Origin: Providencia vermicola
GTDB taxonomy: Bacteria; Pseudomonadota; Gammaproteobacteria; Enterobacterales; Enterobacteriaceae
DNA: 64,000 nucleotides
Direction: 5' to 3'
NCBI RefSeq assembly: GCF_020381325.1
Contig: NZ_JAGSPI010000005.1
Coordinates: forward strand, 248,001 to 312,000
Part shown: in pieces, positions 18,366-33,354 of the stretch
Layout: every line of letters starts with the position of its first letter
Numbering within the stretch: the stretch's first letter is position 1
Position numbers and translations under genes: made by a program
The notes under the pieces: generated by a model
The model's input: the letters and a program-made list of their open reading frames with translations, nothing else
What the model was told of the DNA's origin: nothing
Database searches by the model: none

Positions 18366-21104
18366 ATGAAATCTACCGATGAAATCCGCTTTGCTGAGTG
18401 GCAAATGTGGCCTCAATTGAGGATCCTGCTGCATCGCGGTAAACCGGTTAAAATTTCTGCCAGAGCCTTTGATGTGCTGGTTGTTCTGGTCAGTGCACAA
18501 GGCCAAGTCGTAAGTAAAGACCGATTGCTTACTCAGGTATGGGGTAATGAAATTGTTGAGGAAAATAATCTTCAGGCGCAGATTTCTGCCATCCGTCGCG
18601 TGCTTGGCAACGATCGTCATCTTCTGACGACCGAATTTGGTGCCGGCTACCGTTTTGATCTTTTGCCTAGTCATCAAGTCGTATCGCCAAAACTTAGCAG
18701 AAACCCACCCGTTGTTTTTCCTTTTCTAACCTCTATTTTAGGGCGTGATCAAGCAGTGCAGGAGGTATGCGCCTTAATACGTCAGCACCCACTTGTCACT
18801 ATCACTGGTCTAGGCGGCGTGGGTAAAACACGTTTAGCTTGGGAAGTCGTTAATCTCGTTCGGACAAAGTATCCAGATGGCGTTTGTGTGGTTGAATTGG
18901 CGCACATCTCTGATGCTACCAGTCTTCTCTCCGCTTTCTCACAGGCTTTGCATCTGCCACTGACTGCCGTTCATAACGGTTATGATTTATCTCATCAGCT
19001 CGCTCAACGCCAATGCTTGTTGATGATTGATAATGGTGAGCATGTTATTAAAGAGTTAAAACCAGTGATTGCCTTGCTACTGAATGCAGCGCCGCATATT
19101 GCCATGTTGCTTACTAGTCAGGCGGCAACAGAAATTGCTGGTGAGCAACAGTACCTCCTTCCGCCACTGGTGGTTCCGGAAAAAGAAGAGGCCGATTTTC
19201 AACGATTGCTCCAGTTTCCCTGCGTCCGCCTCTTTATTGAACGAGCTCAGACTCAGCGATTTGATTACCATCCATCAAATGCTGAGCTGCCAGTGATAGG
19301 TGAATTATGCCGTCATCTTGACGGGCTCCCCCTAGCAATTGAACTTGCAGCCTCTCGGTTGCCTATTATGAGTGTCAGTGAGATTTATCATTGTCTGGAA
19401 GATCGTTTTCAGCTTTTGAGCAACAGGCAAAGCGTTCGGGTATCTCGACATCAAAAAATCAAGACTACGCTAGAGTGGACTTATCAATTACTCAATCCAC
19501 GTGAACAGAAATTATTCTGCTCTTTGGGGATTTTCACCGATATGTTCACCGTGAACGTCGTGACTGACTTATTACAGACTCCTGAAGAACATAGTTGGCA
19601 GATTGTCGATGATCTCCAACGATTGGTTTCCCTGTCACTGATTCAAGTCATCACTCAGGTACCCGTTACCCGTTTTCGTTTACTGGAAACCCTTCGTCAG
19701 TTCGCTTGCGATAAACTCAGGCTGCAAGGAGTATATCCAATGCTTGCCGCTCAGTTTGCTGACTATTGCCATCGCCAAGCGGAGCAAGCTCAGCTCGATT
19801 GGTATAGGCTGCCAACAAAACAGTGGCGAGCGCATTATGACTGCGTCCTGAATGATTTACGCAGTGTTTTACAGCACACCTTAACTGAAGGGAGTAACCC
19901 TGCAAAAGGACTTGATATATTACAGTCCATGACGCCATTTTGGATTGAATATTCACTTTATCATGAATGTCAGCGTCATATTTATCCGCAACTTAATGAA
20001 GTGCGTTTGCAGGGAGTATTAACATTACATCAGAGAATGAATCTCAGCGCAGCAGCGGGTAAAGCATCAACTTGGGCAAAAGGTCCCACTCCTGAAACAC
20101 GATTCACTTGGCAAACTGCGCTGTCACTTGCTGAACAACTCGACGATAACGAAATCCGCTTACAAGCTTATTATGGGCTATGGTTATATTACTTACGTAC
20201 CGGAAAACTGGATCTATCCCTTCATCATGCACAGTCAATGTGCTCGCTCGCGCGGGCGATTAATGATACGAACGCGCTGGCTACAGGATTACGAATTGTG
20301 GGGGTATCTTGGCATTTTTTGGGCCTGCATGCTCTCGGTCGTGATTATTTGCAACAATCTTTAGACCGGTTTGCCATTGACGGTTCCGAGCACGCTTTCC
20401 GTTTTGGGCTCGATCAGCAAACTGCCGGAGAGGCATTTTTATCCCGTGTACTTTGGGTACAGGGTGAATATAAAACCGCTAAGCAGATTGCATGGCGAGC
20501 AGTGAAAAAAGCGGCGCGTTTACAACATATTTGTTCGTTGTGTTGCGCTTTGGCGGAAGGTGCCTGCATGACTGCGGCACTAGATCGCAATCCGCGCTGG
20601 GTAAGAAAGGCCGCTCTCTGGCTTATTGAACTGGCTGAAAAACATGATCTCTATTTTTGGAAAACTTACGGTGAGTTGTTCCTCCATTGGGCTGAGCAGT
20701 TCAGTCATTCCAATATCCAACAAACTATGTTATTTAGATCGCTGAGAGGCATGGGGCTAGACTGGCAGTACTCTCCTTTATTATCAGAAATGGATAGCAA
20801 ACTTTCCCAGCAAACTCCGTATGAAAACTGGTGTACTCCTGAACTGATGCGTCTTTCCGCGATACATTTACCGATCTGCGCTCAGCGCCAGCAATTAGAA
20901 CTGGCACTTAATAAAGCATATCAGCAACAAGCATATGGCTGGGCTTTGCGCATTGTTTGCTCGCTAGCAACGCTGCTAGTTGAAAGCGGTGACCGTGTGA
21001 TGGCAAAACAGTTAATCACGGAGGTGTTAAACCATATCGATGATTCTCAACACTCAACAGATATCAGAAATGCGCTAGAGCTATGTACTCGTTTGGGTGG
21101 ATGA
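18366..21104 (+). CDS. Large transcriptional regulator: OmpR-type winged helix plus NB-ARC-like ATPase and helical repeats
   Basis: The 912-residue protein begins with an OmpR/Trans_reg_C DNA-binding domain (residues ~8-97: FDVLVVLVSAQGQVVSKDRLLTQVWG and HLLTTEFGAGYRF). The ATPase module has Walker A GLGGVGKT (148-155) and a Walker B-like LLMIDNGEH with D222, the DNxEH variant common in these regulators. A sensor block GLPLAIELAASRLP and a long alpha-helical C-terminal repeat region follow. Such STAND-type regulators act as ligand-driven switches. The gene overlaps the 3' end of the convergent MFS gene by 24 bp. Its less AT-rich composition differs from the flanks, suggesting a transferred cassette with the MFS and SDR genes. 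Confidence 0.8.
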   Translation: MKSTDEIRFAEWQMWPQLRILLHRGKPVKISARAFDVLVVLVSAQGQVVSKDRLLTQVWGNEIVEENNLQAQISAIRRVLGNDRHLLTTEFGAGYRFDLLPSHQVVSPKLSRNPPVVFPFLTSILGRDQAVQEVCALIRQHPLVTITGLGGVGKTRLAWEVVNLVRTKYPDGVCVVELAHISDATSLLSAFSQALHLPLTAVHNGYDLSHQLAQRQCLLMIDNGEHVIKELKPVIALLLNAAPHIAMLLTSQAATEIAGEQQYLLPPLVVPEKEEADFQRLLQFPCVRLFIERAQTQRFDYHPSNAELPVIGELCRHLDGLPLAIELAASRLPIMSVSEIYHCLEDRFQLLSNRQSVRVSRHQKIKTTLEWTYQLLNPREQKLFCSLGIFTDMFTVNVVTDLLQTPEEHSWQIVDDLQRLVSLSLIQVITQVPVTRFRLLETLRQFACDKLRLQGVYPMLAAQFADYCHRQAEQAQLDWYRLPTKQWRAHYDCVLNDLRSVLQHTLTEGSNPAKGLDILQSMTPFWIEYSLYHECQRHIYPQLNEVRLQGVLTLHQRMNLSAAAGKASTWAKGPTPETRFTWQTALSLAEQLDDNEIRLQAYYGLWLYYLRTGKLDLSLHHAQSMCSLARAINDTNALATGLRIVGVSWHFLGLHALGRDYLQQSLDRFAIDGSEHAFRFGLDQQTAGEAFLSRVLWVQGEYKTAKQIAWRAVKKAARLQHICSLCCALAEGACMTAALDRNPRWVRKAALWLIELAEKHDLYFWKTYGELFLHWAEQFSHSNIQQTMLFRSLRGMGLDWQYSPLLSEMDSKLSQQTPYENWCTPELMRLSAIHLPICAQRQQLELALNKAYQQQAYGWALRIVCSLATLLVESGDRVMAKQLITEVLNHIDDSQHSTDIRNALELCTRLGG

Positions 21105-22268
21105 AGTGTTGTATCTGATGGCGATTAACATACCCAACATCACGAACCCTGCTCCAGCAGCCACAATCAACATCCAGTTATGCGTGGTTTCCCATAGCCA
21201 AGTTGCCGTCACTGATCCACATGCGCCACCGATAAACATGATGCACATAAATACTGTGTTAAGACGGTTTCGGGCCTCGATACACAAAGAATAAATGGTG
21301 TGCTGATTCGCGATCAGGACGCATTGTTCCCCCGCATCCAGTAATAGAATGCCTACCACCATACCGGCTATGCTGTTCCAGCCCCAGAAAATAATCCAGG
21401 CCAGCAGCATAAGCACTATGCCCAAGACAACCATTCTAAAAGAGCCTTGACGATCGCTGATACTTCCTGCCAGAGGCGCACACAGAATTCCGATTAACCC
21501 TAGCGCTGCCAGAGACCCAGTTATGCCTGCCCCGTAATGGTAGCGGTAGTCTAACCAGAAAGGGAGGGCTGTCCATAATACGCTGAAGGAGGCAAATAAC
21601 AGGGCTTGTGTCAGTGTGGCATTTCTCAGTTGTGGTTCATTTTTCCACAACAGCGCTAAGGAACGCAGTACTGTGAGATAGTTAAACTTTGGGGTGGGTA
21701 ATGACTGAGAAGGCAAAATACGGGCGATGAAAAATATCGCTAACAGTGTCATGACTGCGCCTGATAAAAAGACTCCTCGCCAATCGAAATATTGACCGAT
21801 AAAGCCGCCAATAGCCCGTCCCGCTAGAATTCCTGCCAAAACACCACTCATTACCGTTCCCACCGTTTTACCGCGTGAAGAACTTTTTGATAGCGAAGCT
21901 GCAAGCGGTACAATCTGTTGGGCGACGGTGGCTGCAATGCCAGTCAGGAAAGAGAAAAACACTAGCACTGATGCTGTTGGAGAGAATATCATACCAATCA
22001 GTGCCAAAAACAGCACTTGTGCCTGACGAAGGATAAGTCGTTGACGTTCTATATAATCACCCAGCGGGATCAACAAGAACAAACCTACCGCATAACCTAA
22101 TTGGGTGGCCATGGGGATCAAAGAAATGGCTTTCCATTCATTAGGAAAAGAACCCGCAATCAGATTCAGAATGGATTGATTAAAATAAATATTCGCGACA
22201 ACAATACAGCAAATAATTGCCAGCATTAAGATCTTGACGGAAGAAAGTTCCTCGCTATCAGTACACAT
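21081..22268 (-). CDS. MFS transporter (drug-efflux-like)
   Basis: This membrane protein has about 12 predicted helices and the MFS motif between helices 2 and 3 (LGDYIERQRLI). It has a second cytosolic motif (AGSISDRQGSF) in the second half. I place the start at MCTDSEELSS because GCGAGG sits 7 bp before it; upstream in-frame ATGs extend the frame to 22301. It is divergent from the SDR gene with a 16-bp palindrome between them, and its 3' end overlaps the regulator gene. Likely role: export of a small molecule related to the SDR substrate; this is inference. Confidence 0.8.
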   Translation of the reverse strand: MCTDSEELSSVKILMLAIICCIVVANIYFNQSILNLIAGSFPNEWKAISLIPMATQLGYAVGLFLLIPLGDYIERQRLILRQAQVLFLALIGMIFSPTASVLVFFSFLTGIAATVAQQIVPLAASLSKSSSRGKTVGTVMSGVLAGILAGRAIGGFIGQYFDWRGVFLSGAVMTLLAIFFIARILPSQSLPTPKFNYLTVLRSLALLWKNEPQLRNATLTQALLFASFSVLWTALPFWLDYRYHYGAGITGSLAALGLIGILCAPLAGSISDRQGSFRMVVLGIVLMLLAWIIFWGWNSIAGMVVGILLLDAGEQCVLIANQHTIYSLCIEARNRLNTVFMCIMFIGGACGSVTATWLWETTHNWMLIVAAGAGFVMLGMLIAIRYNTSSTQTST

Positions 22269-22339
22269 GTTCATACCTCGCTCTAAACTCAATGTTGTCA
22301 ACTCTAAGCAATATCTATTTTTGATTCTTTGACCACTTT

Positions 22340-22355
22340 ATTCAGACGTCTGAAT
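22340..22355. promoter_or_regulatory. Perfect 16-bp palindrome between divergent MFS and SDR genes
   Basis: ATTCAGACGTCTGAAT is perfectly symmetric and sits in the shared promoter region, 71 bp from the chosen MFS start and 82 bp from the SDR start. It is a likely operator for a dimeric regulator. Confidence 0.6.
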
Positions 22356-22437
22356 TTTATTCCCCAAGTGTTTGAAACCGAAAATTGTTATTAATGTTAT
22401 TCACATTAATCACTGAACATAATGTAAGGAGTTAAAG

Positions 22438-23244
22438 ATGGATTTAAAACTGGCCGGTAAAGTGGCTCTAGTAACTGGAGCTCGAACTGGTATTGGTTTC
22501 AGTATTTGTGAAGAATTGGCCGCGAATGGTGTGCATCTGATCATGGTTGCTAGACAAAAAGCACAACTGATATTAGCGGCACAAAAACTTGCAGATAAAT
22601 ACGGTGTAACAGTACTGCCTATTGCTGGGGACGTGATGGATCCTGAACTGCCTGAGCTAGTGGTAAAACAGGCGGAAAGTATTTTTCAGCGCATTGATTT
22701 GCTTATAAATAATGCCGGAAGGGCCCACGCAGGCACGCTGCTGACTACATCAGAAGAAGAGTGGCAGTTGATGACAGAGACTAAGTTTTCTGCAATGCGA
22801 CGGTTTTGTAAGGTTGTTATACCCGGAATGCAGGCCCGAAACTGGGGACGCATTGTCAACATTTCCTCTATTGGTGGTATCTATCCAAACCCCCAACTGA
22901 CGGTTTCACATGCTCTGAGCGCTGCAATCAATAATCTAACTCGTAGTTTGGCACTGAGTGTTGCACCTGATGGGATTTTGGTTAACGCGGTGGGGGTAGG
23001 TGCTGTTATGACGGATAACTGGGCTCAGAATATGCTGCCGAATGTCCGTGATCGTCATCATGAGCTAGCGGACAAAACAGATAAAGAGATCATGGCATTA
23101 TTAGGCAAAGAGAAAACGCCTGTAGGGCGTTTTGGATTGCCAGAAGATATTGCGGCAATCACCGCATTTTTACTTTCTGGTCGGAATCAGTTTGTTACTG
23201 GCCAGACTATTGAGGCTTCAGGCGGGGCTGACCGTTTTATGTAA
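22438..23244 (+). CDS. Short-chain dehydrogenase/reductase-like protein lacking the catalytic Tyr and Lys
   Basis: The 268-residue protein has the SDR cofactor motif G14-x3-G18-x-G20 (TGARTGIG), NNAG at 91-94 and the catalytic-serine region NISS (141-144). The standard YxxxK dyad is replaced: by position the Tyr is Ser157 and the Lys Ser161 (VSHALSAAINNLTRS). The C-terminus is normal (PVGRFGLPEDIAAITAFLLS, VTGQTIEASGG). It may therefore bind a dinucleotide without normal SDR catalysis, or use another residue such as His158. A strong ribosome-binding site (TAAGGAG) precedes the start. It is divergent from the MFS gene. Confidence 0.8.
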   Translation: MDLKLAGKVALVTGARTGIGFSICEELAANGVHLIMVARQKAQLILAAQKLADKYGVTVLPIAGDVMDPELPELVVKQAESIFQRIDLLINNAGRAHAGTLLTTSEEEWQLMTETKFSAMRRFCKVVIPGMQARNWGRIVNISSIGGIYPNPQLTVSHALSAAINNLTRSLALSVAPDGILVNAVGVGAVMTDNWAQNMLPNVRDRHHELADKTDKEIMALLGKEKTPVGRFGLPEDIAAITAFLLSGRNQFVTGQTIEASGGADRFM

Positions 23245-23265
23245 TAGCTGGATGCTTTTTTACAG

Positions 23266-23305
23266 ACGCTGGCTGGCTGATGAGTACTTTCGGGCCAACC
23301 AGCGT
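23266..23305 (+). terminator. Hairpin after the SDR gene
   Basis: The ends ACGCTGG/CCAGCGT extend into a second paired segment (TGGC/GCCA), giving a long stem. There is no strong U-run. It probably ends the SDR transcript just before the dif region. Confidence 0.45.
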
Positions 23306-23379
23306 AGCTGCTCTTTAAGCGAAATGTATAGGAAGTTATGAACAAGTTATCTAATCCATATAATATATGTAAGTAAAAT

Positions 23380-23387
23380 GGGCAGGG
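23380..23387 (+). other. KOPS-like octamer pointing toward dif
   Basis: GGGCAGGG fits the FtsK-orienting motif GGGNAGGG. It lies 59 bp left of dif and reads toward it. Confidence 0.45.
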
Positions 23388-23446
23388 AAGCTAACTCATT
23401 ATATAAGGTCATAAAAAGGTTATGGGCTTTATGTCTCATTAATTCA

Positions 23447-23474
23447 ATTTAACATAATATGCATTATGCGAACC
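23447..23474 (-). other. dif: dif-like XerCD recombination site
   Basis: On the plus strand the XerD arm is ATTTAACATAA (23447-23457), the centre is TATGCA, and the XerC arm is TTATGCGAACC (23464-23474). Compared with E. coli dif from memory, 26 of 28 positions agree, with one change in the centre and one in the XerC arm. Nearby tus, Ter sites and terminus genes support its being the chromosomal dif where XerC and XerD resolve dimers. The transposon at 23480 starts 5 bp beyond the XerC arm. Confidence 0.85.
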
Positions 23475-23479
23475 TAAGT
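23475..23479. repeat. Target-site duplication, left copy
   Basis: TAAGT directly abuts the left end of the element and is repeated exactly at 29054-29058. Confidence 0.8.
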
Positions 23480-23527
23480 TGTAGAGGCTCAATGCTAATG
23501 TCTATTCCTGGCTCAATCTAAATGTCT
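23480..23527 (+). repeat. Left terminal inverted repeat with internal 18-bp direct repeat
   Basis: Within the end lie two related 18-mers, at 23486-23503 and 23510-23527 (GGCTCAATGCTAATGTCT and GGCTCAATCTAAATGTCT), 24 bp apart. They probably represent two transposase-binding sites. The same two-part arrangement is recognisable at the right end. Confidence 0.75.
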
Positions 23528-23606
23528 GCACTATATTTATCTATGGGGTTAACCTTTCTTTTTTCGACGTGGGGAAAGAAAAAGGATATTTCCTGGAGAT
23601 ATGGTC

Positions 23607-25007
23607 ATGAGTGCAGAAAGCTCAGGACGATTCACGTTGAAAGAATTAAACCGCATTAAAGTTCTGCAAGATGTCATTGATCGCAACATGACACCAGGTC
23701 GTGCTGCCATGATACTCGGTATTACACCACGTCATTGTAGCCGACTGATAAAGCGCTACCGTGAGCATGGCCCCTTAGGTATGAATAACATTTCTCGAGG
23801 CAATCCGAGTAACCGTTTATTGCCAAAATCATTCACTGACCAAATTGTAGATATCGTTAAGAAAAATTATCCTGACTTTGGACCTACGCTAGCACGCGAA
23901 AAACTAGAAGAAATACATGGGCTGACTATTGGTAAAGAAACACTTCGTCGGCTGATGATCTGTGCAGGTTTATGGATTCCGAGAAAAATGCGAGCCCCAA
24001 AAATTCACCAACCCCGGTATCGACGCCCTTGTACCGGTGAATTGATCCAAATTGATGGCTGTGACCATGATTGGTTTGAAGGACGTGGTCCAAAATGTAC
24101 AGCATTAGTCTATGTTGATGATGCGACAAGTAAAATCATGGAGCTCCTTTTTGTCCAGGCTGAATCCACATTTACATACTTTAATGCCACTCGGCGTTAT
24201 ATTGAGAGACATGGAAAACCATTGGCACTTTACAGCGATAAGGCTGGCATATTTAGAATTAATAACAAAAATGCTATAGGTGGTGATGGTCATACTCAGT
24301 TTGGTCGGGCTATGCATGAGTTAAGTATTCAAACTATTTGTGCAGAAACCAGTCAAGCAAAAGGCCGAGTTGAACGTGCGCATAGCACACTTCAAGATCG
24401 CTTGGTTAAAGAGTTTCGCCTTAAGAAAATCAGTTCAATCGAGTCTGCAAATGCATTCACTGATGAGTTTATGGTTGATTATAATCATCGCTTTGGCAAG
24501 CTCCCTCGCCATGAATATGATGTACATCGACCTCTAGAACAAGATGAGGATTTGGATACCATTCTTACAATCAGAGAGTACAGAAAAGTCTCTAAAAACC
24601 TTACTGTTCAATATGATAAGATTATTTATCTAATTGAAGATACTGAACATAGTCGGCGAGCTATTGGTAAATATATCGATGTGTATCACTATCCTGACGA
24701 ACGTAAAGAACTGCGATTGAACGGCATCCCCCTTCCCTTTATCACGTATGACCGACTGTCTGATGTTGACCAAGGTGCTATTGTGGACAACAAACGGCTT
24801 GGTCGAACTCTCGAACTCATTAAAACAGTTGTCGATGATAAGAGAGATAACCGGCGCTCACAATCTGTACCTGCTGGAAATGGGCCGTCACGACGCAAAG
24901 AAAAAGCGCCAGGCAAAAAATCCCAGCGCTCTATCGATCAAAATGACATGTTAGAAGCCCTCGTTAAACTTCAAGGGCGTTCAAAGGAAATTTTTGGTAA
25001 AAGTTAG
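23607..25007 (+). CDS. IS1202-superfamily (formerly ISNCY) DDE transposase
   Basis: Counted from MSAESSGRF, whose ATG lies 8 bp after GGAG, the protein has 466 residues; an ATG at 23601 is an alternative. The N-terminal helix-turn-helix includes MTPGRAAMILGITPRHCSRLIKRYREHG. The integrase-like core has D150 in IQIDGCDHDW, D211 in YSDKAGIF and E256 in KGRVERAHSTLQ, so the DDE triad is intact. The C-terminal tail is basic and low-complexity. The gene sits 127 bp inside the left end of the element; its stop is 38 bp from the stop of the convergent cargo gene. It looks functional. Confidence 0.9.
   Translation: MSAESSGRFTLKELNRIKVLQDVIDRNMTPGRAAMILGITPRHCSRLIKRYREHGPLGMNNISRGNPSNRLLPKSFTDQIVDIVKKNYPDFGPTLAREKLEEIHGLTIGKETLRRLMICAGLWIPRKMRAPKIHQPRYRRPCTGELIQIDGCDHDWFEGRGPKCTALVYVDDATSKIMELLFVQAESTFTYFNATRRYIERHGKPLALYSDKAGIFRINNKNAIGGDGHTQFGRAMHELSIQTICAETSQAKGRVERAHSTLQDRLVKEFRLKKISSIESANAFTDEFMVDYNHRFGKLPRHEYDVHRPLEQDEDLDTILTIREYRKVSKNLTVQYDKIIYLIEDTEHSRRAIGKYIDVYHYPDERKELRLNGIPLPFITYDRLSDVDQGAIVDNKRLGRTLELIKTVVDDKRDNRRSQSVPAGNGPSRRKEKAPGKKSQRSIDQNDMLEALVKLQGRSKEIFGKS
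24730..24737 (-). other. KOPS-like octamer on the minus strand
   Basis: CCCTTCCC is the complement of GGGAAGGG. It lies right of dif and reads leftward toward it, though inside the mobile element. Confidence 0.35.
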
Positions 25008-25045
25008 AATCTATGCTCTGAACTTATCCAAATTCCTTTGGTTAA

Positions 25046-28000
25046 CTATGATTTAGTTAAAAATCCATCTCCATATATGGTCATTGCAAGCGAATATTGC
25101 GGGTGTTTTCCTAAATTTCTGGCAGTAGCCTCATTTGCTGCTTTTGTTGAATCAAACAGTGATGCACCAGAATCCCATGCTGTTAAAAATGGTTCCAACC
25201 AATTATATGTTACCTTAACATCTAACGGCCATGGTGATGCAATAACTGCTTTTACCCCCCTACTTAGCAGTAATTTTGGTAATCCTACAGTTGTATTACT
25301 CCATGGGTTTTTGTCAATTCGTCCCCCGCTACAGACAAAAAGAATAACTACATCTGAATCTGCTAGTGCATTAGCCAACGCTGTAGGTGCTTCAACTAGC
25401 ATTTCTTCATCACTAATACGATGAATATAACGTTTTACTCTTGTTAATCCACCGTGAGCAACCACTACTGCAATTTCAGCACTACTTAAGTCTGGTATCC
25501 GTTGCATAGTATCTAGAGTAAAATTGAACTCATCAAAAGTTCCCTCTAATCTACGTAAAGCAACCCCCATTGCTCCACCTCCGTCAGGATTATCCTGATG
25601 AGAGATCCAAGATTTTCTCGTACTATGAACACTACTATAGTTTTGTCTTGTTGATGCTAACCATGTTAATGAAGGCACCATCGCAATGGCAGAATTATAT
25701 CCAAGAAAGTCGCCCATGCATTCATCATGACTCTTTACTAGAGAAAGATTAAATGTAATCTGTTGTAATTCAGGTTCAGCAATTATAAGCAACTTAGAGG
25801 CTATAGGTAATTTAATATCTAATGATTCCATAGCAGCAAAAAACTCATTATTACCGTCGAAAGAATCAATCGCACCATATTTATATGGGTATTCTTCCAA
25901 CCATGTTAGCATGCGATTTTTAAAGCTTCTAGAATGCACTGACTGTTCAATTCTCTCTATCTTGTCTTGAGAAATATGAATAACCACTAATTCACCAGAA
26001 GTATCTAAACCAAGAAATAAAATATCAGCACCTAATGTATTTAATTCACGAGAATAATTTACTAGCCAATCTATATGGAGAGGAACTGGTTTCGATATAC
26101 TTGAAACCGAATGATCCGCAAGAATTTCAATAGCTAAAGCATTTTCAGACACTGGGCGTGAAACACCAACTTGATCATTTAGCAGTCTTCTTGCAGCTAC
26201 AGTTATCATTGCATAATCTTTTGATATATCAGATGAATAAGATGCTTTTTCAATAAGATTAAACTGTTGTACAACAGATTCTACAGTTGGTTCAATATCT
26301 GAAACTGTCGAAATAAATTCTGTTACTTGTGAGCCTAAAAATTCAAGTCCTTCAGATAATACTCGCCGAGATTCATCAGAGACCACAACATGGAAATAGT
26401 CAGCACGTCTAATAACTTGACTTAATTGTATAATTAGTGGCATTAAATCGCTTCGATTACCTGCTGCATTTAAACATCCTTCAGTCAAACGACTAAGCAT
26501 TCTTGCAATTATCGAGGGATTTTCACTTGTAGATGCGCAAAGGTTAATACTCTCTTCTATTGATAACATCCGAGGATCAGTATCAGGGTCAGCTCCACAA
26601 TTTTGTAATAAAAGCCGAAGTGTCGGAAGTAAACTACGTGCATGATCAAGTAAACCTAGATCACGGAGAATGCGACTAGCTGCAAAAAATTCTTGCCACA
26701 TATCTGCGGGTGTAGTTGATGCATTGGTGGCAAAAGCACAAGCTAGGCTATAGATGGCTTGTAATGGGTCATTACAACGTTGATAAATATCGGAATAAGC
26801 CAGCCAAGCCAGACGCTTGCGCTCAGCATTTTCTGAGCCCAGCAATAAAGCTTGTTCTGCATAATTCCTAGCATGTTGAAATTGCGATGCTGCCGCAAAT
26901 TGACCACCTAGTAACCTAAGCACCCTTAAATCCATATTAGTTTCATATTTAGCATGTGGAGTTAACATGCAAACTACGCTGACCATTTTTTCCATAAAAT
27001 TAAGGTCAATGTCTTCTTTTTCTGGAGCAGCATAATTAATTATTCGCGCAATGAGCCGAATCAAACTATCGGGAGATTCAACGATATTACTGGGTAGGAC
27101 AGTTACACCATTTTCTACTACACATTGAGCACTTACCCATACTAGGATACGTTCAAGATATTCCATTAATGTGTTGTAATCAGGTTCTTTCAAGTTATTG
27201 TTTTCTTCGTCTTCTTGCTCTTCATTTTGTGATGGTGAAATATTTTGACTTTGTTCACTAGCAATATCCAGCATAGTAAGTGTAATCGCAGGAACACCTA
27301 TTTCTCCACAAGACTCAACTGAAAGTAATTCAGTAAGTTGTTGACGAACTTGTTCATCATTAGGGTAATTAGCAAGATAACGAATTACCGATTGAAGTAG
27401 GATACGATAATGGTCATGCTCTTCATAACTAATAGCCTCTACAAGCATAATCTTACGTAATGAGCTTAAAACTATTAGTGTGGCTTGCCGCCCGTATATT
27501 GCTGAGGTAGTGATAAGAGAAGCAACATCCGCTGCGTCTCTTGAATTTCCCAATGAATTAGCATGGGTACAACAACTGATTGCAGCAAGTTGAGCCCATT
27601 CATTTCCCCAATCATTTGCAGCTTCAACAATAGAGCTGTAAATAGGATTTTCAGAAAATAATTCACTTTGTAAGGTTAAGTGATACTGAGAAAAACCAGC
27701 AGTGGTAAAAATCCATTTTTTATCCTTATGAGTCAAGCTACAATTAATTAACAATCGACGATCTCGATTTTCCCTGAGAGATTCTGAATTTGGGAATAAC
27801 AATTCCATAGCTTGATCATACATTTCAATTAAAGTGTCATCATGTAGATAAGTTGCAAGATCTAATGCCTTCTCCAACCAATCATGAGAAGCTAGTCCAT
27901 TAGCATCCTTAGGCAACAAACTCTTTACTAACGGTTTATTTTCTATTTTATGTGCTATTGACGCTAATTGAATTAGGCTCTCTATATCCCATAAATTATA

Positions 28001-28852
28001 GTAGTCTAGGCAATGTGTGAGAATTCTAATTACTTCATCACACTTGTTTGCCCGAGAATACAACTGAGCAAGTAAATGTAATCTATTTATTTCAGGTAAA
28101 TTTAAACTTTCAATTTCAGCTAATACTTGATCAGTAAGTCCTCCCATAATTTGCGTGACCCAACGTTGAGCATGCTGATCTACCAATTCTTTTTTATCGT
28201 TTTTAAAAGACAAACATGCAACGTAGCAATCATCAATACCAGTCAATATTTCATTATTTTTATCACTCAATATACAACTGTCGTCTATATGTACTACAGC
28301 ATAAGCATCATGTTTTTTTAACTCAACCATTACTTGTCTGCAAATAGATTCCACATGTCGAGTCCAGATATCTTGGGAGGTGAATACAACAGAAAGACCA
28401 GTTATCGCTTGTGGTGGAAGCCTATTATCTCGATATTTATTGATTTCAGGGATAGCAATAAGTTGTTTATTGCCTTTATCTCTGACCATATCAATCAAAT
28501 CTATTGCATCCAAAGATGTACCATGAATAATATGGACTATATTTTCAAGGAAAGTAATTTCTTCTTCTGTCAGTTTACCTTTTTTAAGTGTTTCTATTCC
28601 GTAATATAGTGCATTCATTACTGATACATGCGTTAGGCTAGTAGCCGATTTTGGCGGTAAAATAACCAGAATACCATCAAAGGTTTTTTTCGGTAATCCA
28701 CACCAAAGAGCGGTTGGTGTTCTACCAATCACATCCTTAAAGTTACCACCTTGTATAATGTCCATGCTCCCCAGATTAAACCCTGCCGAAAATAAGATGG
28801 AAGGGTCAAATTCAAGTAACTCACTGTTTAAATGCTTACTATTTTCATCCAT
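25046..28852 (-). CDS. TPR-CHAT caspase-like protease, cargo of the transposon
   Basis: The protein has 1268 residues. Residues 1-~230 are an unrecognised N-terminal domain. Residues ~240-860 are helical repeats of TPR type (for example HARNYAEQALLLGSENAERKRLAWLAYSDIYQR), interrupted near 540-560 by a very acidic stretch. The C-terminal ~330 residues are a CHAT domain with the caspase-like dyad H1133 (VVVAHGG) and C1174 (LFVCSGG), ending YGDGFLTKS. TPR-CHAT proteins are known partners of type III-E CRISPR effectors and of gasdermin-type death systems, where they cut a specific protein. No partner is present, so it is an orphan effector. The start has an AAAGGA ribosome-binding site. Its 3' end faces the transposase. 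Confidence 0.85.
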   Translation of the reverse strand: MDENSKHLNSELLEFDPSILFSAGFNLGSMDIIQGGNFKDVIGRTPTALWCGLPKKTFDGILVILPPKSATSLTHVSVMNALYYGIETLKKGKLTEEEITFLENIVHIIHGTSLDAIDLIDMVRDKGNKQLIAIPEINKYRDNRLPPQAITGLSVVFTSQDIWTRHVESICRQVMVELKKHDAYAVVHIDDSCILSDKNNEILTGIDDCYVACLSFKNDKKELVDQHAQRWVTQIMGGLTDQVLAEIESLNLPEINRLHLLAQLYSRANKCDEVIRILTHCLDYYNLWDIESLIQLASIAHKIENKPLVKSLLPKDANGLASHDWLEKALDLATYLHDDTLIEMYDQAMELLFPNSESLRENRDRRLLINCSLTHKDKKWIFTTAGFSQYHLTLQSELFSENPIYSSIVEAANDWGNEWAQLAAISCCTHANSLGNSRDAADVASLITTSAIYGRQATLIVLSSLRKIMLVEAISYEEHDHYRILLQSVIRYLANYPNDEQVRQQLTELLSVESCGEIGVPAITLTMLDIASEQSQNISPSQNEEQEDEENNNLKEPDYNTLMEYLERILVWVSAQCVVENGVTVLPSNIVESPDSLIRLIARIINYAAPEKEDIDLNFMEKMVSVVCMLTPHAKYETNMDLRVLRLLGGQFAAASQFQHARNYAEQALLLGSENAERKRLAWLAYSDIYQRCNDPLQAIYSLACAFATNASTTPADMWQEFFAASRILRDLGLLDHARSLLPTLRLLLQNCGADPDTDPRMLSIEESINLCASTSENPSIIARMLSRLTEGCLNAAGNRSDLMPLIIQLSQVIRRADYFHVVVSDESRRVLSEGLEFLGSQVTEFISTVSDIEPTVESVVQQFNLIEKASYSSDISKDYAMITVAARRLLNDQVGVSRPVSENALAIEILADHSVSSISKPVPLHIDWLVNYSRELNTLGADILFLGLDTSGELVVIHISQDKIERIEQSVHSRSFKNRMLTWLEEYPYKYGAIDSFDGNNEFFAAMESLDIKLPIASKLLIIAEPELQQITFNLSLVKSHDECMGDFLGYNSAIAMVPSLTWLASTRQNYSSVHSTRKSWISHQDNPDGGGAMGVALRRLEGTFDEFNFTLDTMQRIPDLSSAEIAVVVAHGGLTRVKRYIHRISDEEMLVEAPTALANALADSDVVILFVCSGGRIDKNPWSNTTVGLPKLLLSRGVKAVIASPWPLDVKVTYNWLEPFLTAWDSGASLFDSTKAANEATARNLGKHPQYSLAMTIYGDGFLTKS

Positions 28853-29005
28853 ACAACAATCCTTTATATATGTTTAATAATCTAAGATCTTTGAAAAACA
28901 GTATAAAGGTAAATGTCATCATTCAGTAAAAAAAAGTTATGGTTAGTACTCCATTCTTATACACGATCAACTCACTGAGGTATTTACTTGTCGGTTATTC
29001 GGTAG

Positions 29006-29053
29006 GACATTTCTAATAAGCCAGCGACTAGACATTCCTATCGAGCCTTGACA
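29006..29053 (-). repeat. Right terminal inverted repeat of the element
   Basis: Reverse-complemented, this segment aligns with the left end over its full length. AGGCTC, AATGTCTA, CTGGCT and AAATGTC occur in the same order, with one extra base. It is the evidence that the element extends past the cargo gene rather than ending after the transposase. Confidence 0.8.
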
Positions 29054-29058
29054 TAAGT
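29054..29058. repeat. Target-site duplication, right copy
   Basis: TAAGT, identical to 23475-23479, directly abuts the right end. Confidence 0.8.
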
Positions 29059-29427
29059 ATGAAATGAAGAAATCCAGCGTTCTGGCTGGTTAATCGTGTT
29101 GGTTCATTTAGGCTTTAAATCGATGTTATTTTCATCACCTGCTATCATTAGGCTCAATCTTAGATCTTCGTGGTACATTTAAATGAAAATGCATAACTCG
29201 CCACACATTGACGAGCTCATCAATGAAACCTTTTCATTTTTAATTTTTGAGCCATTAATATTCCATTTGTCATCCCTTTAGCCACTGGATACTTTATCTA
29301 CCAAATAAAAAAGTACAAATAAAATATTTTAGGCTTTATCTGTTATCAAGTGACAAACGGATAAAATATGATGAGTAAATCGCCGATTTATCAAATTTTG
29401 CTCATTATATATTCTTGGAGTTTCACT
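29059..29427. other. Gene-free stretch between the mobile element and the MuiA-like gene
   Basis: This 369-bp AT-rich interval is the ancestral DNA on the far side of dif. It presumably contains the promoter of the gene at 29428. No RNA gene or clear operator is seen. Confidence 0.4.
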
Positions 29428-31056
29428 ATGACGGTTTCCATTCGTATTGCAAGTGGCTTACTTTTAACATCACTTCTTGCTGCTGGCCATGCTCTAGCGG
29501 AAGCAGAAAGTACTTTAAATCAAAATGTTAAGCTAAATCATGCGACTATATTTTTACGTGGGGCTGAGTTGGATAATAATGTGACCCTGTCACTTAAATC
29601 AGGCCAAAATGATGTTATATTAACCAATATTGCAACAAACATAGACCCACGAACTCTGTCCGTTAGTTTGAAAAATAATGATGTTATTATTCGCTCAATT
29701 AATGTCCAAAAGGTCTCTGTTCCCCCTACTTACTCACCTGAAATAATTACGCTTCAAGAACAACAAAAACAAAATAATCAACAAATTGAACGCTTAAATA
29801 TTGCAATTAAAGTGGGAGAAGAACAATTATCGTTGTTGAAAGATCAACGCTTTTTTGGTGAAAACAATAGCCAGACAATTGAACAATCGTCACAAAAGTT
29901 GAATTTTATCCGTCAACAGATGACGCAAATATTGCAAGAACAGCAGCAAAATCAAGCATCAGTGGATGAGCTTGAAGAAAAAAACATGTTGCTACAAGCT
30001 CAAATTGATGAAAACTTGCCTGCGGTTGTCGGGCAGCAAACTCAAGTGGTGATGGTTATTGATGCGAAAAACGCGACCACAGCACAAATGCAACTTTCTT
30101 ACCTTACCCCTGATGCCGCTTGGTCCCCAAGTTATGATTTTCGTAGTGAAGATGTTGAATCCCCTATTGTTCTTACCTACAAGGCCAATGTTGTGCAAAA
30201 CACAGGGATTGATTGGCGAGATGTCAATCTAACGTTATCTTCTGTAAACCCGTCTAAAAATATTACGCCATTTAACCTGCAACCTTGGCGCTTATCAGTT
30301 TATGATGACAATATACAGTACGAATCCCAAGCCTTAATGCGACAGGCTCCTGCTCCCGTCGCAATGATGGACGCCAATCTGCGTGGAAAAAAAAGTCGTG
30401 ATAATTCAGGTATTGCCGATTTTGTCACTGCATCAAACAATGGCATCAATTTAAACTACGATATTTCATTACCTTATAGCCTAAAAAGCAGCACAAAACC
30501 CAACTCGTTGACCATCAAACAAACAGATGTTATAGGAAAATACCAATACACGGCGACACCGAAACTGGCGGAAGATGTCTTCTTACAAGCCGATATCGAT
30601 AATTGGCAGGCTCTGAATTTACTGAATGGTAACGCCAATATTTACTATGGCAATACGTATATTGGTAATTTCCAAATTGATACCACTCAGTTGAATGATA
30701 CTCTCTTTATTCCTTTTGGCATTGATAAAAACATTCAGATTTCTCGTGAAAATAACGAAAAAATGAAGAAAAAACCAAGCTTTATTGGTTCAACTATTGA
30801 ACAAAAGGAAGGATATTTAATTAAAGCCAAAAATATGCATACTAAGCCAATTAATTTAACAATTATTGACCAATTACCGATTAGTCAAGATAGTGAAATT
30901 AAAGTTTCTGAAATTGATAATAAACAGGCTGTTGTCAATAAAACAACAGGAGAATTAACTTGGGATGTGACTTTAGAAGCTAACCAACAGATTGAAATTC
31001 CATTTAATTATACGTTGAGCTACCCAAAAGATAAGCATATCGTTGGTCTTGAATAG
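29428..31056 (+). CDS. Exported DUF4139/DUF4140 (MuiA-like) protein
   Basis: I start at MTVSIRIASGLL, preceded by TTGGAG, because it gives a clean signal peptide (cut after HALA); the frame is open further upstream to 29368. The 542-residue product has an N-terminal DUF4140 domain (ATIFLRGAELDNNVTLSLKSGQNDVILTNIATNIDPRTLSV), a coiled coil at about 100-190 (EQQKQNNQQIERLN, QQMTQILQEQQQNQASVDELEEKN), and a DUF4139 domain with LSYLTPDAAWSPSYDFR and NTGIDWRDVNLTLSS. These proteins are predicted periplasmic and were named for inhibiting mucoidy; the mechanism is unknown. Confidence 0.8.
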   Translation: MTVSIRIASGLLLTSLLAAGHALAEAESTLNQNVKLNHATIFLRGAELDNNVTLSLKSGQNDVILTNIATNIDPRTLSVSLKNNDVIIRSINVQKVSVPPTYSPEIITLQEQQKQNNQQIERLNIAIKVGEEQLSLLKDQRFFGENNSQTIEQSSQKLNFIRQQMTQILQEQQQNQASVDELEEKNMLLQAQIDENLPAVVGQQTQVVMVIDAKNATTAQMQLSYLTPDAAWSPSYDFRSEDVESPIVLTYKANVVQNTGIDWRDVNLTLSSVNPSKNITPFNLQPWRLSVYDDNIQYESQALMRQAPAPVAMMDANLRGKKSRDNSGIADFVTASNNGINLNYDISLPYSLKSSTKPNSLTIKQTDVIGKYQYTATPKLAEDVFLQADIDNWQALNLLNGNANIYYGNTYIGNFQIDTTQLNDTLFIPFGIDKNIQISRENNEKMKKKPSFIGSTIEQKEGYLIKAKNMHTKPINLTIIDQLPISQDSEIKVSEIDNKQAVVNKTTGELTWDVTLEANQQIEIPFNYTLSYPKDKHIVGLE

Positions 31057-31130
31057 TAACTTTTGTAGTTCCCTTTCGAAGGCGTTAGAATAAATTTACG
31101 CAAGACAACAATAATAGCTTAGAGGTTTTC

Positions 31131-31880
31131 ATGATTATATTAGTGACTGGTGCATCATCTGGATTTGGCGAATCTATCGCGCGTAGATTCATTCAGCAAG
31201 GTCATACCGTTATTGGTACAGGGCGTCGAACCGAACGTTTAGAAGCGTTACAACGCGAATTAGGCAATAGTTTTCACCCTCTAACATTAGATGTTCAAGA
31301 TAGAAAAGCGATTCAAACTGCCGTTGCTAATTTACCTACCTCCTTGAAAAATATTGATGTTCTTGTCAATAATGCAGGTTTAGCACTTGGTTTGGAACCT
31401 GCGTTTAATGCAAACCCAGATGATTGGGCAGTAATGATTGATACCAATACCAAAGGTTTGGTCAATATGACCTATGAAGTCCTACAAGGTATGGTGGCAA
31501 AAGATCATGGCCATATTATTAATATTGGTTCAACCGCAGCAAGTTGGCCTTACAAGGGGGGGAATGTGTATGGCGCCACTAAGGCATTTGTTAAACAATT
31601 TTCATTAGGTTTACGTGCTGATTTACAAGGTAAAAAAATTCGAGTGACGGATATTGAGCCAGGTTTAGTCGGTGGAACTGAGTTTTCTAACGTGCGTTTT
31701 AAAGGTGATGATGATAAAGCTGCAAACACCTATAAAGGTGCTGAGGCATTAACACCTGAAGATATCGCTGAAACGGTATTTTGGGTTGCAACGCTGCCTG
31801 CGCATATGAACGTGAATACTCTGGAATTAATGCCTGTCTGCCAAACATTCGCTGGTTTAACCGTTCATAAACAACTTTAA
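31131..31880 (+). CDS. ydfG: NADP-dependent 3-hydroxy acid dehydrogenase YdfG
   Basis: This 249-residue SDR is near-identical in plan to E. coli YdfG: TGASSGFGESIARRFIQQGHTVIGTGRR at the cofactor site, NNAGLALG, IGSTAASWPYKGGNVYGATKAFVKQFS with the YxxxK dyad intact, and IEPGLVGGTEFSNVRFKGDD. It oxidises L-allo-threonine, serine and 3-hydroxy acids, and acts in malonic semialdehyde reduction in E. coli. ydfG is also a terminus-region gene in E. coli, so its position fits the backbone. AGAGG precedes the start. Confidence 0.95.
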   Translation: MIILVTGASSGFGESIARRFIQQGHTVIGTGRRTERLEALQRELGNSFHPLTLDVQDRKAIQTAVANLPTSLKNIDVLVNNAGLALGLEPAFNANPDDWAVMIDTNTKGLVNMTYEVLQGMVAKDHGHIINIGSTAASWPYKGGNVYGATKAFVKQFSLGLRADLQGKKIRVTDIEPGLVGGTEFSNVRFKGDDDKAANTYKGAEALTPEDIAETVFWVATLPAHMNVNTLELMPVCQTFAGLTVHKQL

Positions 31881-31961
31881 TTTTCGTACTATTCTCTACA
31901 GACGAAATGGTTTATCTTTGGCTATACTCAAGATATTGACCCTGTTTAGTAAGGAATTTAC

Positions 31962-32336
31962 ATGAGTACTCAGAATATTTTAAAGAAAAGCGTAGCAACA
32001 ATGTGTGTTTGTTTACCATTACTTTGGGCAACAGTTGCACCTGCTGCTCAGGGAAATACAACAACGTCATGCACTGCAGGCAGTACTTGTGTTTCTGTTG
32101 GTAAAGGTGATGATACTTTAAATAAAGAACAAGCTCGCCAAGAAAAAGAACAATGGGATAACACTCGAATGTTACGCAATAAAGTGAATACGCGTACTGA
32201 AAAAGAGTTCGATAAGATTGACGCCGCATTTGATGCAAAAGATAAGTGTGAAAAAAGCTTGAATCTGAATGCCTATTGGGAACCTAGTACAAAACGCTGT
32301 TTAGATGTTGGTACTGGTCGTCCAATTAACCCGTAA
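31962..32336 (+). CDS. ynfB: Exported DUF1283 protein YnfB
   Basis: The 124-residue product has a signal peptide (cut near APAAQG). Its C-terminal half matches E. coli YnfB closely: [55 protein letters not shown]. Two cysteine pairs are possible (TSCTAGSTC and KCEK...RCLD). The function is unknown; it is periplasmic by prediction. A second small exported gene (ynfD-like) follows 44 bp later. Confidence 0.9.
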
Positions 32337-32380
32337 GTTGTTAATTTGTTCGTTATGGAGTCATTTACCAAGGAGGATCG

Positions 32381-32614
32381 ATGCAAAAAAAATTGTTAGT
32401 TCCATTATTTTTAGTGATGTTGGCCCCTGCTTTTGCTCAAGCTTCATGTGAAAGTGTAATAGAAGAAATTAAACAAAAAATTATCAATAATGGCGTACCT
32501 GCCGATAGTTTTAGTTTAGTTGCAGTTCCTAATGATGAAGTTGACCCATCAAAAGGCCAAGTTGTCGGTCACTGCCAAAATGATTCATATAAAATTATTT
32601 ATACCCGCCATTAG
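32381..32614 (+). CDS. ynfD: Small exported DUF1161 protein YnfD-like
   Basis: The 77-residue product has a signal peptide (cut after AFAQA) and the DUF1161 core SCESVIEEIKQKIINNGVPADSF...VVGHCQNDSYKIIYTR, matching E. coli YnfD. Two cysteines probably form a disulfide. The start has an AAGGAGG site. It probably shares a transcript with ynfB and ends at the strong terminator at 32632. Confidence 0.9.
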   Translation: MQKKLLVPLFLVMLAPAFAQASCESVIEEIKQKIINNGVPADSFSLVAVPNDEVDPSKGQVVGHCQNDSYKIIYTRH

Positions 32615-32631
32615 GCATGGATAAATAATAC

Positions 32632-32660
32632 AAAAAAGGGCGAATTAATCGCCCTTTTTA
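32632..32660. terminator. Rho-independent terminator between ynfD and bioD2
   Basis: The stem GGGCGA/TCGCCC is flanked by an A-run and by TTTTTA, and can work in both directions for the convergent genes. Confidence 0.85.
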
Positions 32661-32679
32661 CTTGTTTTTTTTCAAATAA

Positions 32680-33354
32680 TTATGCGGGTACAGTAATAAA
32701 TTCCTGCAATTTTTCGATATGCAAATAGTGTCCTAAATCCCGCTCTTCTGGCCGTAATAAATACGGAATTTCACCAATTAGAGGCGCTTTAATGTGGTGC
32801 TGCAGGCGGTCAATAATTTGTGCGTAATGAGCAAGACCTGGGTTAATTCGGTTTGCCATCCAGCCAATTAGCGGTAAACCATCGGCCCTAATTGCATCCG
32901 CTGTTAACAAGGCATGATTGACACAACCGTGCTGAATACCCACCACTAAGATGACTCCGACAGATTGTCCTTTGAGCCAATCGGCATAAAAAGTATTATC
33001 ATCAAGCAAATAGCGCCAACCGCCATTTCCTTCAATAACGACCATATCGCATTGTTCATGTAAATGCTCTAAACCTTGTTTGATTTTACTAAAATCAATG
33101 CTGTTCTCATGGCTGTAGTTGTCAGTGATGCGAACTGGATTAACTTCATCATAAGAAACGAGGTCTTTAGACACACTGTGAATCAATAATGCATCTTTAT
33201 TCCTGGTTCCTTCAGGGGTATCAATGCATTGATCTGCAATAGGTTTGTATCCTACGGCTTTAATTCCTTGTCCATTGAGTGCTTGCAAGATAGCAAGTGT
33301 TGATACTGTCTTCCCGACATCTGTATCTGTCCCGGTAATAAATAGATTGATCAT
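32680..33354 (-). CDS. bioD2: Dethiobiotin synthetase paralogue BioD2 (YnfK)
   Basis: The 224-residue protein has the BioD P-loop GTDTDVGKT at residues 8-16, the substrate lysine in VGYKPIADQ, and VVIEGNGGWRYLL. It corresponds to E. coli YnfK, the second BioD, which lies directly before mlc there as here. BioD closes the ureido ring of dethiobiotin with ATP and CO2. Whether this paralogue contributes to biotin synthesis is uncertain in E. coli. It is 140 bp downstream of mlc on the same strand. Confidence 0.9.
   Translation of the reverse strand: MINLFITGTDTDVGKTVSTLAILQALNGQGIKAVGYKPIADQCIDTPEGTRNKDALLIHSVSKDLVSYDEVNPVRITDNYSHENSIDFSKIKQGLEHLHEQCDMVVIEGNGGWRYLLDDNTFYADWLKGQSVGVILVVGIQHGCVNHALLTADAIRADGLPLIGWMANRINPGLAHYAQIIDRLQHHIKAPLIGEIPYLLRPEERDLGHYLHIEKLQEFITVPA

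Follow-up and report, generated by a model that had tools for sequence, protein, structure and literature searches.

The Xer site dif is present on nearly every circular bacterial chromosome and also on many plasmids. The targeting of XerCD sites by relatives of the insertion sequence (IS) IS1202 was reportedly the subject of a 2023 paper in Plasmid. The dif targeting of the IS1202 family is already known, as are transporter IS with one unknown open reading frame (ORF), and the members listed in the available part of PMC10132070 are 1.3-2.5 kb long and have no more than a single additional ORF, whose function is not known. The transposase of this family is stated there to be TnsB-like, and Harmer and co-workers proposed that it makes contact with XerC (available part of PMC10132070). 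Tn7-like transposons with defence cargo are also known (available part of PMC8649781). Here we describe an element of 5,574 bp (23480-29053) in a stretch of 64,000 nucleotides from Providencia vermicola (contig NZ_JAGSPI010000005.1, positions 248,001 to 312,000; hereafter the window), in which a transposase and a TPR-CHAT caspase/separase-like protein are encoded by two large genes arranged tail to tail. We consider it highly probable that this unit is a dif-targeting cargo transposon of the IS1202 family, belonging to its short-duplication branch, and that the TPR-CHAT cargo is likely a stand-alone sensor-protease.

A reading made from the letters alone (the sequence-only reading) had placed the right end of the unit beyond the TPR-CHAT gene, with TAAGT bounding 5574 bp exactly, and both placements were confirmed. 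The left end (TGT... from 23480) and the right end (...ACA to 29053) form an imperfect inverted match of 19/26, and an exact TAAGT duplication abuts both of them (Table 1). The same reading had aligned the two ends over ~48 bp; the paired motif blocks that it described are present. The ungapped match over the full 48 bp is 26/48, and the inner blocks fit each other best when offset by 1 bp (16/25). The 15 kb right of the transposase were shuffled 100 times (first-order Markov model); the best inverted match followed by TAAGT then had a mean of 11.3 and never exceeded 14/26. Without the TAAGT requirement the mean was 16.2 and the maximum equalled the observed 19/26, so the proof of the boundaries rests on the duplication and on the empty sites described below. 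Together with the right end, these two observations also led us to reject a simple IS lying beside an unrelated CHAT gene.

Table 1. Positions of the element, its genes and its flanks in the window
Feature	Position	Strand	Remark
Chromosomal dif (XerD arm - 6 bp - XerC arm, XerC arm facing the element)	23447..23474	+	Exact match
Left target-site duplication TAAGT	23475..23479	.	Present once in empty sites
Left end: terminal inverted repeat and second related motif block	23480..23527	+	50/50 identical in L040, L042, L043
IS1202-family DDE transposase, 468 aa	23601..25007	+	D152, D213, E258
Cargo: 1268-aa TPR-CHAT caspase/separase-like protein	25046..28852	-	CHAT PF12770, E 1e-6
CHAT protease domain, ~aa 925-1268	25049..26080	-	His1133, Cys1174
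Helical (TPR-like) repeats, ~aa 220-924	26081..28195	-	Predicted structure
N-terminal alpha/beta domain, aa 16-218	28199..28807	-	Predicted RecA/DnaB-like fold
Right end: terminal inverted repeat and second motif block	29006..29053	-	Kept in L040 (46/50) and L042 (48/50)
Right target-site duplication TAAGT	29054..29058	.	
Conserved chromosomal right flank of dif, old XerC-arm neighbour, small hairpin	29059..29110	.	

The dif site beside the element is the sole good copy in the genome, as the other match found within three mismatches, on contig C1, has three. The element starts 5 bp from the XerC arm of this site, just as the sequence-only reading had it. When the dif stretches of 23 other genomes of the genus were compared, dif was found in 22 of them, empty (with no left end adjoining) in 20 and filled in two (G010 and G017), and no intact dif occurred in the stretch fetched for G020. 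Exactly TAAGT lies beside dif in nine of the twenty empty sites, and in one of them (G001) dif and TAAGT are followed by 40/40 bases of the right flank of the window, which is the joined site. Empty dif sites with a single TAAGT, which the sequence-only reading had proposed to look for in related strains, therefore exist.

To the right of dif, a stretch of ~58 bp is conserved throughout the genus. Repeated units were observed at dif in two sister genomes, with copies of the right flank exactly 8,865 bp apart in one (G011:C6:1565998-1583797; L051, L052) and ~10.06 kb apart in the other (G007:C1:1420979-1441157; L044, L045). The XerD arm is replaced at their internal junctions (TAACATAGCGT...TTATGCGAACC), and the units look like Xer-integrated filamentous phages or similar elements. 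Single junctions of the same phage type were also found in G019 (L061) and G020 (L034). The ~58-bp flank, small hairpin included, recurs at each junction of this type, so it seems that a copy of the chromosomal dif flank is part of the presumed phage.

Such arrays at dif in sister species agree with a history without transposition, in which the TPR-CHAT and transposase genes came in together, either as part of a larger Xer-integrated element or through homologous recombination over the dif region. The same history fits the sequence left of dif, which the species do not have in common, as the matches begin at dif, and a partial XerC arm right of the cargo in G017, such as a Xer-integrated circle might leave. 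It is nevertheless very improbable in view of the exact 5-bp duplication at both ends of the element in the window, the right flank that continues as in the empty site of G001, and the window's right junction, at which no dif copy was found.

The transposase gene places the unit, read as a cargo transposon, in the IS1202 family. Q265 lies seven residues after E258 (motif positions assigned by eye), a catalytic pattern that was compared by eye with the available part of PMC10132070. Features of the family were found here, namely a DDE transposase of ~394-507 aa whose E is followed seven residues later by Q, imperfect ends of ~22-29 bp with TGT/ACA and a second internal motif in each, and a duplication of 3-5 bp located ~5 bp from the XerC arm in a fixed orientation. 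Protein length, DDE/Q pattern, ends and duplication thus bear out the assignment to the IS1202 superfamily that had been made from the letters. The protein is 73% identical to the transposase of ISKpn21 and falls in the same clade. At megablast sensitivity, no place covering 80% of the transposase region was found in 5,426 Escherichia coli genomes. The search for the transposase gave none in the single genome from the genus of G034 and one match (49%) in 30 genomes from the genus of G035. Viral contigs contained eleven loci, all with ~73% identity, and the IMG/VR copies (L118-L128) are ISKpn21-like.

The same element was found at dif in P. stuartii NCTC11800 (G010, L042), with 98.7% DNA identity over 5.57 kb and 97.3% over the first 1.8 kb. 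The backbone right of dif is ~73% identical between the two species, with four main matches of 72-78% identity that cover ~13.2 kb of a 14.9-kb query. A recent transfer of the element between species is strongly indicated by this comparison of DNA identities. The 5-bp flanks in P. stuartii are readable as a 4-bp duplication or as having lost one base. The cargo gene occurs in two of the 24 genomes of the genus (the source genome and P. stuartii), inside the element in both cases. A TPR-CHAT gene kept at the same spot without the transposase, which the sequence-only reading regarded as incompatible with a mobile unit, was seen in none of the 24.

Different cargo was found in close relatives. 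The Moellerella plasmid pW51-a (NZ_CP093246.1, L040) carries an element of 6,638 bp with a transposase 97% identical to that of the window, six cargo genes and a matching right end. Its cargo is a complete type III cyclic-oligonucleotide-based antiphage signalling system (CBASS) made up of CD-NTase, HORMA, TRIP13, a Cap17-like effector and an exonuclease, as identified with PADLOC and Pfam, neither of which gave a match for the sixth gene. The DNA held in common with the window consists of the first 1,523 bp, to just before the stop codon of the transposase, and the last ~40-50 bp, so that the right end is kept despite the unrelated cargo. In G017 (L043) a 95.5%-identical transposase lies beside dif, with a pair of type III-A retron genes and a pair of Gabija genes behind it; the right junction (L043:13237-13270) consists of a partial XerC arm, AAAGT and the usual flank, as if it were a decayed second copy of dif. 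Cargo thus differs between elements that are otherwise nearly identical, a check that the sequence-only reading had proposed, with CBASS or retron III-A and Gabija following transposases of 95-97% amino acid identity. Different genes can therefore occupy the slot that begins after the transposase stop and reaches to the last ~40-50 bp of the right end. The subclade has four known members with three kinds of cargo, all of it defence systems or TPR-CHAT (by position in the case of G017). In the transposase tree, the proteins of the window, L040 and L043 group together (99/86) and that of P. stuartii falls outside despite sharing the cargo of the window. This split and the lower identity of the 5' part fit a movement of cargo between transposase lineages, on short branches.

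A left end could be read in 29 elements, and in 24 of these it lies 4-5 bp from a dif-like XerC arm (at most 5/22 mismatches), always in one orientation. The 1,040,542 positions of 24 such loci contain 29 dif matches of this quality, targeted ones included. Four others (L064, L112, L134, L136) lie directly behind the apparent right end of another element, which is itself visible for L112 and L134 and represented only by its last bases for L064. L062 fits neither the dif-adjacent nor the stacked position. An exact 5-bp duplication was observed in 18 of the 25 elements with both flanks readable; it is 4/5 in L106, L109 and L007, and no in-register match was found in L040, L042, L062 and L133. 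Two stacks repeat a single duplication (L112:4456-16182, TATAA; L006:7907-12467, GGCTT), which suggests that dif remains available as a target, with new copies inserted between it and the older ones. A second, partial transposase inside an 11.3-kb Klebsiella element (L110:10890-11866) hints at the fusion of two stacked elements, and cargo may be captured in this way. The earlier suggestion that the element spreads through Xer sites therefore holds as far as the choice of target is concerned.

The cargo protein has a CHAT fold with a His-Cys dyad. His1133 and Cys1174 are invariant across all aligned homologues, PF12770 was detected in 6/6 of these, and the protease fold of the predicted structure matches separase and the TPR-CHAT protein of Craspase. 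The structure models have a mean predicted local distance difference test (pLDDT) score of 68 and 75 and were built from five-sequence alignments. Matches to TPR models of Pfam were obtained below threshold only, and a sequence search of the PDB gave no match for TPR-CHAT. A class-wide search for TPR-CHAT found it in one of 369 genomes, the source genome alone. Relatives are located in prophage-like contigs and, on plasmids, among conflict genes; they were found in 23 plasmid records, of which five had their surroundings viewed, and no dif transposon lies beside them in the stretches of plasmids and phage-like contigs that were seen. The fold, the contexts of these relatives and the cargo of the sister elements suggest that TPR-CHAT is a defence or cell-death gene. 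The sequence-only reading had spoken of a mobile defence or cell-death gene; its mobility was supported, and its defence role is suggested by the same three lines of evidence.

The clade of cargo carriers was surveyed in 198 genomes of the taxonomic family, with 22 matching at E 1e-60, and in 394 genomes of the order, with 13 matching at 1e-100 (the source genome is included in both), and a plasmid collection was added. In a tree of 40 transposases the cargo carriers included fall into one clade of 24 (100/100). L066 (4,483 bp; AACGT) carries CBASS with a 4TM effector, and an Enterobacter kobei plasmid (L109; 4,506 bp) has a 4TM effector (PADLOC) beside an annotated nucleotidyltransferase. The remaining cargo consists of redox genes in L063 (7,206 bp; GATGA) and L062, an arsenic operon in L064, L111 and L112 (7,188 bp), arsenic genes in L065, a nitroreductase and a hydrolase in Cronobacter (L105; 5,360 bp; GGATA), a P450 cluster in Klebsiella (L110; 11,348 bp; AATTT), GrpB in L107 and L108, a Fic protein in L137 (2,513 bp), a superinfection-immunity-like gene (PF14373) in L134 (6,520 bp) and DUF6904 in ISKpn21 (2,278 bp). 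The cargo of 15 of the 29 elements was passed through PADLOC, several in part (window, L040, L043, L063, L066, L003, L105-L107, L109, L133-L137); the arsenic elements and L110 lie outside this set, and the count of defence carriers is a lower bound.

These sister elements allow a more ordinary interpretation, in which the unit is a generic cargo transposon, TPR-CHAT is a plain accessory without a defence role and the run of defence cargo in the subclade is sampling luck. The arsenic, redox, nitroreductase, P450 and GrpB cargo listed above is in line with it, as is the small size of a subclade with just four known elements. We regard it as unlikely, given that all four members carry defence-system or TPR-CHAT cargo (G017 by position only) of three kinds and that relatives of TPR-CHAT occur in the phage and plasmid contexts described. 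Less probable still is that TPR-CHAT serves the transposon itself, either in addiction, by killing cells from which the element is lost, or in exclusion, by blocking competing phages that integrate at dif. The junctions of phage type that four sister genomes (G007, G011, G019, G020) have at the same dif and the superinfection-immunity-like gene of L134 are compatible with such a role, whereas the element contains no antitoxin-like partner and the relatives on plasmids and phage-like contigs have no such transposon beside them in the stretches seen.

Several observations weigh against the proposed reading of the unit. Left of dif, one stretch has 88% identity with P. stuartii, so the divergence of the backbone is not uniform, and the cargo gene of that species is broken into three pieces. 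The 5-bp flanks of the Moellerella element are unequal (GCGTT/GGGGT). A right end was sought in G017 and not found, and its retron and Gabija genes are tied to the transposase by position only. The branches that set the window, L040 and L043 apart from L042 are short, and the tree program gives a warning that long branches meet at the point where the clade joins distant IS. On the side of the cargo, no PADLOC or PHROGs model matches TPR-CHAT, and Craspase rows spanning helices and protease together align only at a root-mean-square deviation of 10-20. Finally, the arsenic, redox, P450 and GrpB genes of several sisters mean that the vehicle is not limited to defence.

Some further elements and features complete the survey. 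L006 and L133-L137 belong to the set of 29 elements and are absent from the tree; L133-L137 were found via the transposase of L110. A right end was located for L009 (1,639 bp; AGTGT; 19/26), which stands outside the counts. The set also leaves out L067 (left end past the contig edge), L068-L071, L081 and L084-L087 (fragmentary transposases or contig edges), the more distant L072-L080, L082, L083 and L092-L104 (43-52%), the element preceding that of L112, the IMG/VR copies L118-L128, and the duplicates L001, L002 and L010-L012. For L092-L104, which have transposases of ~45-52% identity and were found order-wide, the best-scoring ends are 1.5-1.6 kb apart in 11/13 and most are without an exact duplication; solutions of 3.0 kb and 1.5 kb are tied for L097, and 3.4 kb ranks above 1.6 kb for L099. 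We read them as plain IS, with two of the 13 unclear. L077 (46%) lies at a dif-like site and its right end was not pinned down. In the CBASS carriers L066 (2553-3304) and L109 (3092-3843) the gene for the transposase is followed by two small ORFs of 91 and 159 aa, and the same pair fills a Serratia element without CBASS genes (L106:10590-11341). In the window, an ORF of 912 aa upstream of the dif region (18366-21104) resembles, by eye, a winged-helix regulator with an ATPase part. A known RNA family was rejected for the region of the element, as Rfam gave no family at gathering scores over 22000-31000. Predicted promoters in the region were fewer than in shuffles and terminators were within the shuffle range.

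The observations can be arranged into a possible mechanism. One TnsB-like transposase would bind the paired motifs at both ends and pair the ends, possibly reading its target through contact with XerC. The element lies 5 bp outside the XerC arm with its left end nearest dif, a 5-bp duplication at its flanks and dif left whole. Because dif is nearly universal, such an element could pass from plasmid to chromosome, or the reverse, and from one species to another, and this may be the route by which it passed from one species to another. Cargo would be carried, and swapped, behind the transposase. In the case of TPR-CHAT, a signal of infection might be sensed by the helical repeats and the RecA-like N-terminus and set free the His-Cys protease; this protease would then cut a host or phage protein, and growth would stop or the infected cell would die. 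As a tentative extension, which we hold to be possible and rather more doubtful than the transposon itself, this TnsB-like one-protein lineage may be a dedicated immunity vehicle with XerC-bound dif as its universal address. Head-to-tail stacking and loss of inner ends would fuse neighbours and trade cargo, giving a swappable defence island at the terminus, and TPR-CHAT with its RecA-like head would be a new stand-alone caspase-like immune protein.

The dif site looks like an address for the delivery of immunity genes. If this is true, an element in need of only its own transposase and dif could bring immune systems and resistance operons to distant hosts without damage to genes there, and defence genes not known so far would be predicted between dif-adjacent IS1202-type transposases and their right ends. 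The reading by the transposase of XerC bound at dif becomes directly testable in E. coli K-12. We found no description in the open-access papers searched of multi-gene, interchangeable and defence-rich cargo in dif-targeting IS1202 elements.

Compared with known systems, the element shares with the IS1202 family (ISAjo2/ISAba32-type, and the transporter IS ISKpn21, ISKpn65 and ISRel10), as far as the available part of PMC10132070 describes it, the type of transposase, the TGT/ACA ends with internal repeats, the 5-bp duplication and insertion 5 bp away from the XerC arm with a fixed orientation. It differs from the members listed there in its length of 5.6 kb with a 1268-aa cargo, while relatives reach 11.3 kb and carry defence systems or operons; the range of 1.3-2.5 kb describes the listed members and does not define the family, and the element lies outside it. 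Borvo, in the available part of PMC10952713, is likewise a single-gene CHAT candidate; the cargo gave no match to the PADLOC models, a set that may or may not include BovA. Csx29 of Craspase (type III-E CRISPR) differs from the cargo, which has 1268 aa, an extra predicted RecA-like N-terminal domain and no PDB match by sequence. Identity with Craspase was rejected, as neither Cas7-11, Csx30 nor other CRISPR genes were seen in the element or among the ORFs of 20000-33000, inspected by eye with no profile scan of the neighbours. Tn7-like transposons, according to the available part of PMC8649781, likewise combine a site-specific address with large, exchangeable cargo that includes defence systems. 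Identity with them was also rejected, since only two large genes lie between the ends: the element has one transposase gene, without TnsA, TnsC or a target selector, and its address is dif/XerC. If the proposed reading is correct, the Tn7-like cargo transposons would have in this element a simple counterpart that works with a single protein.

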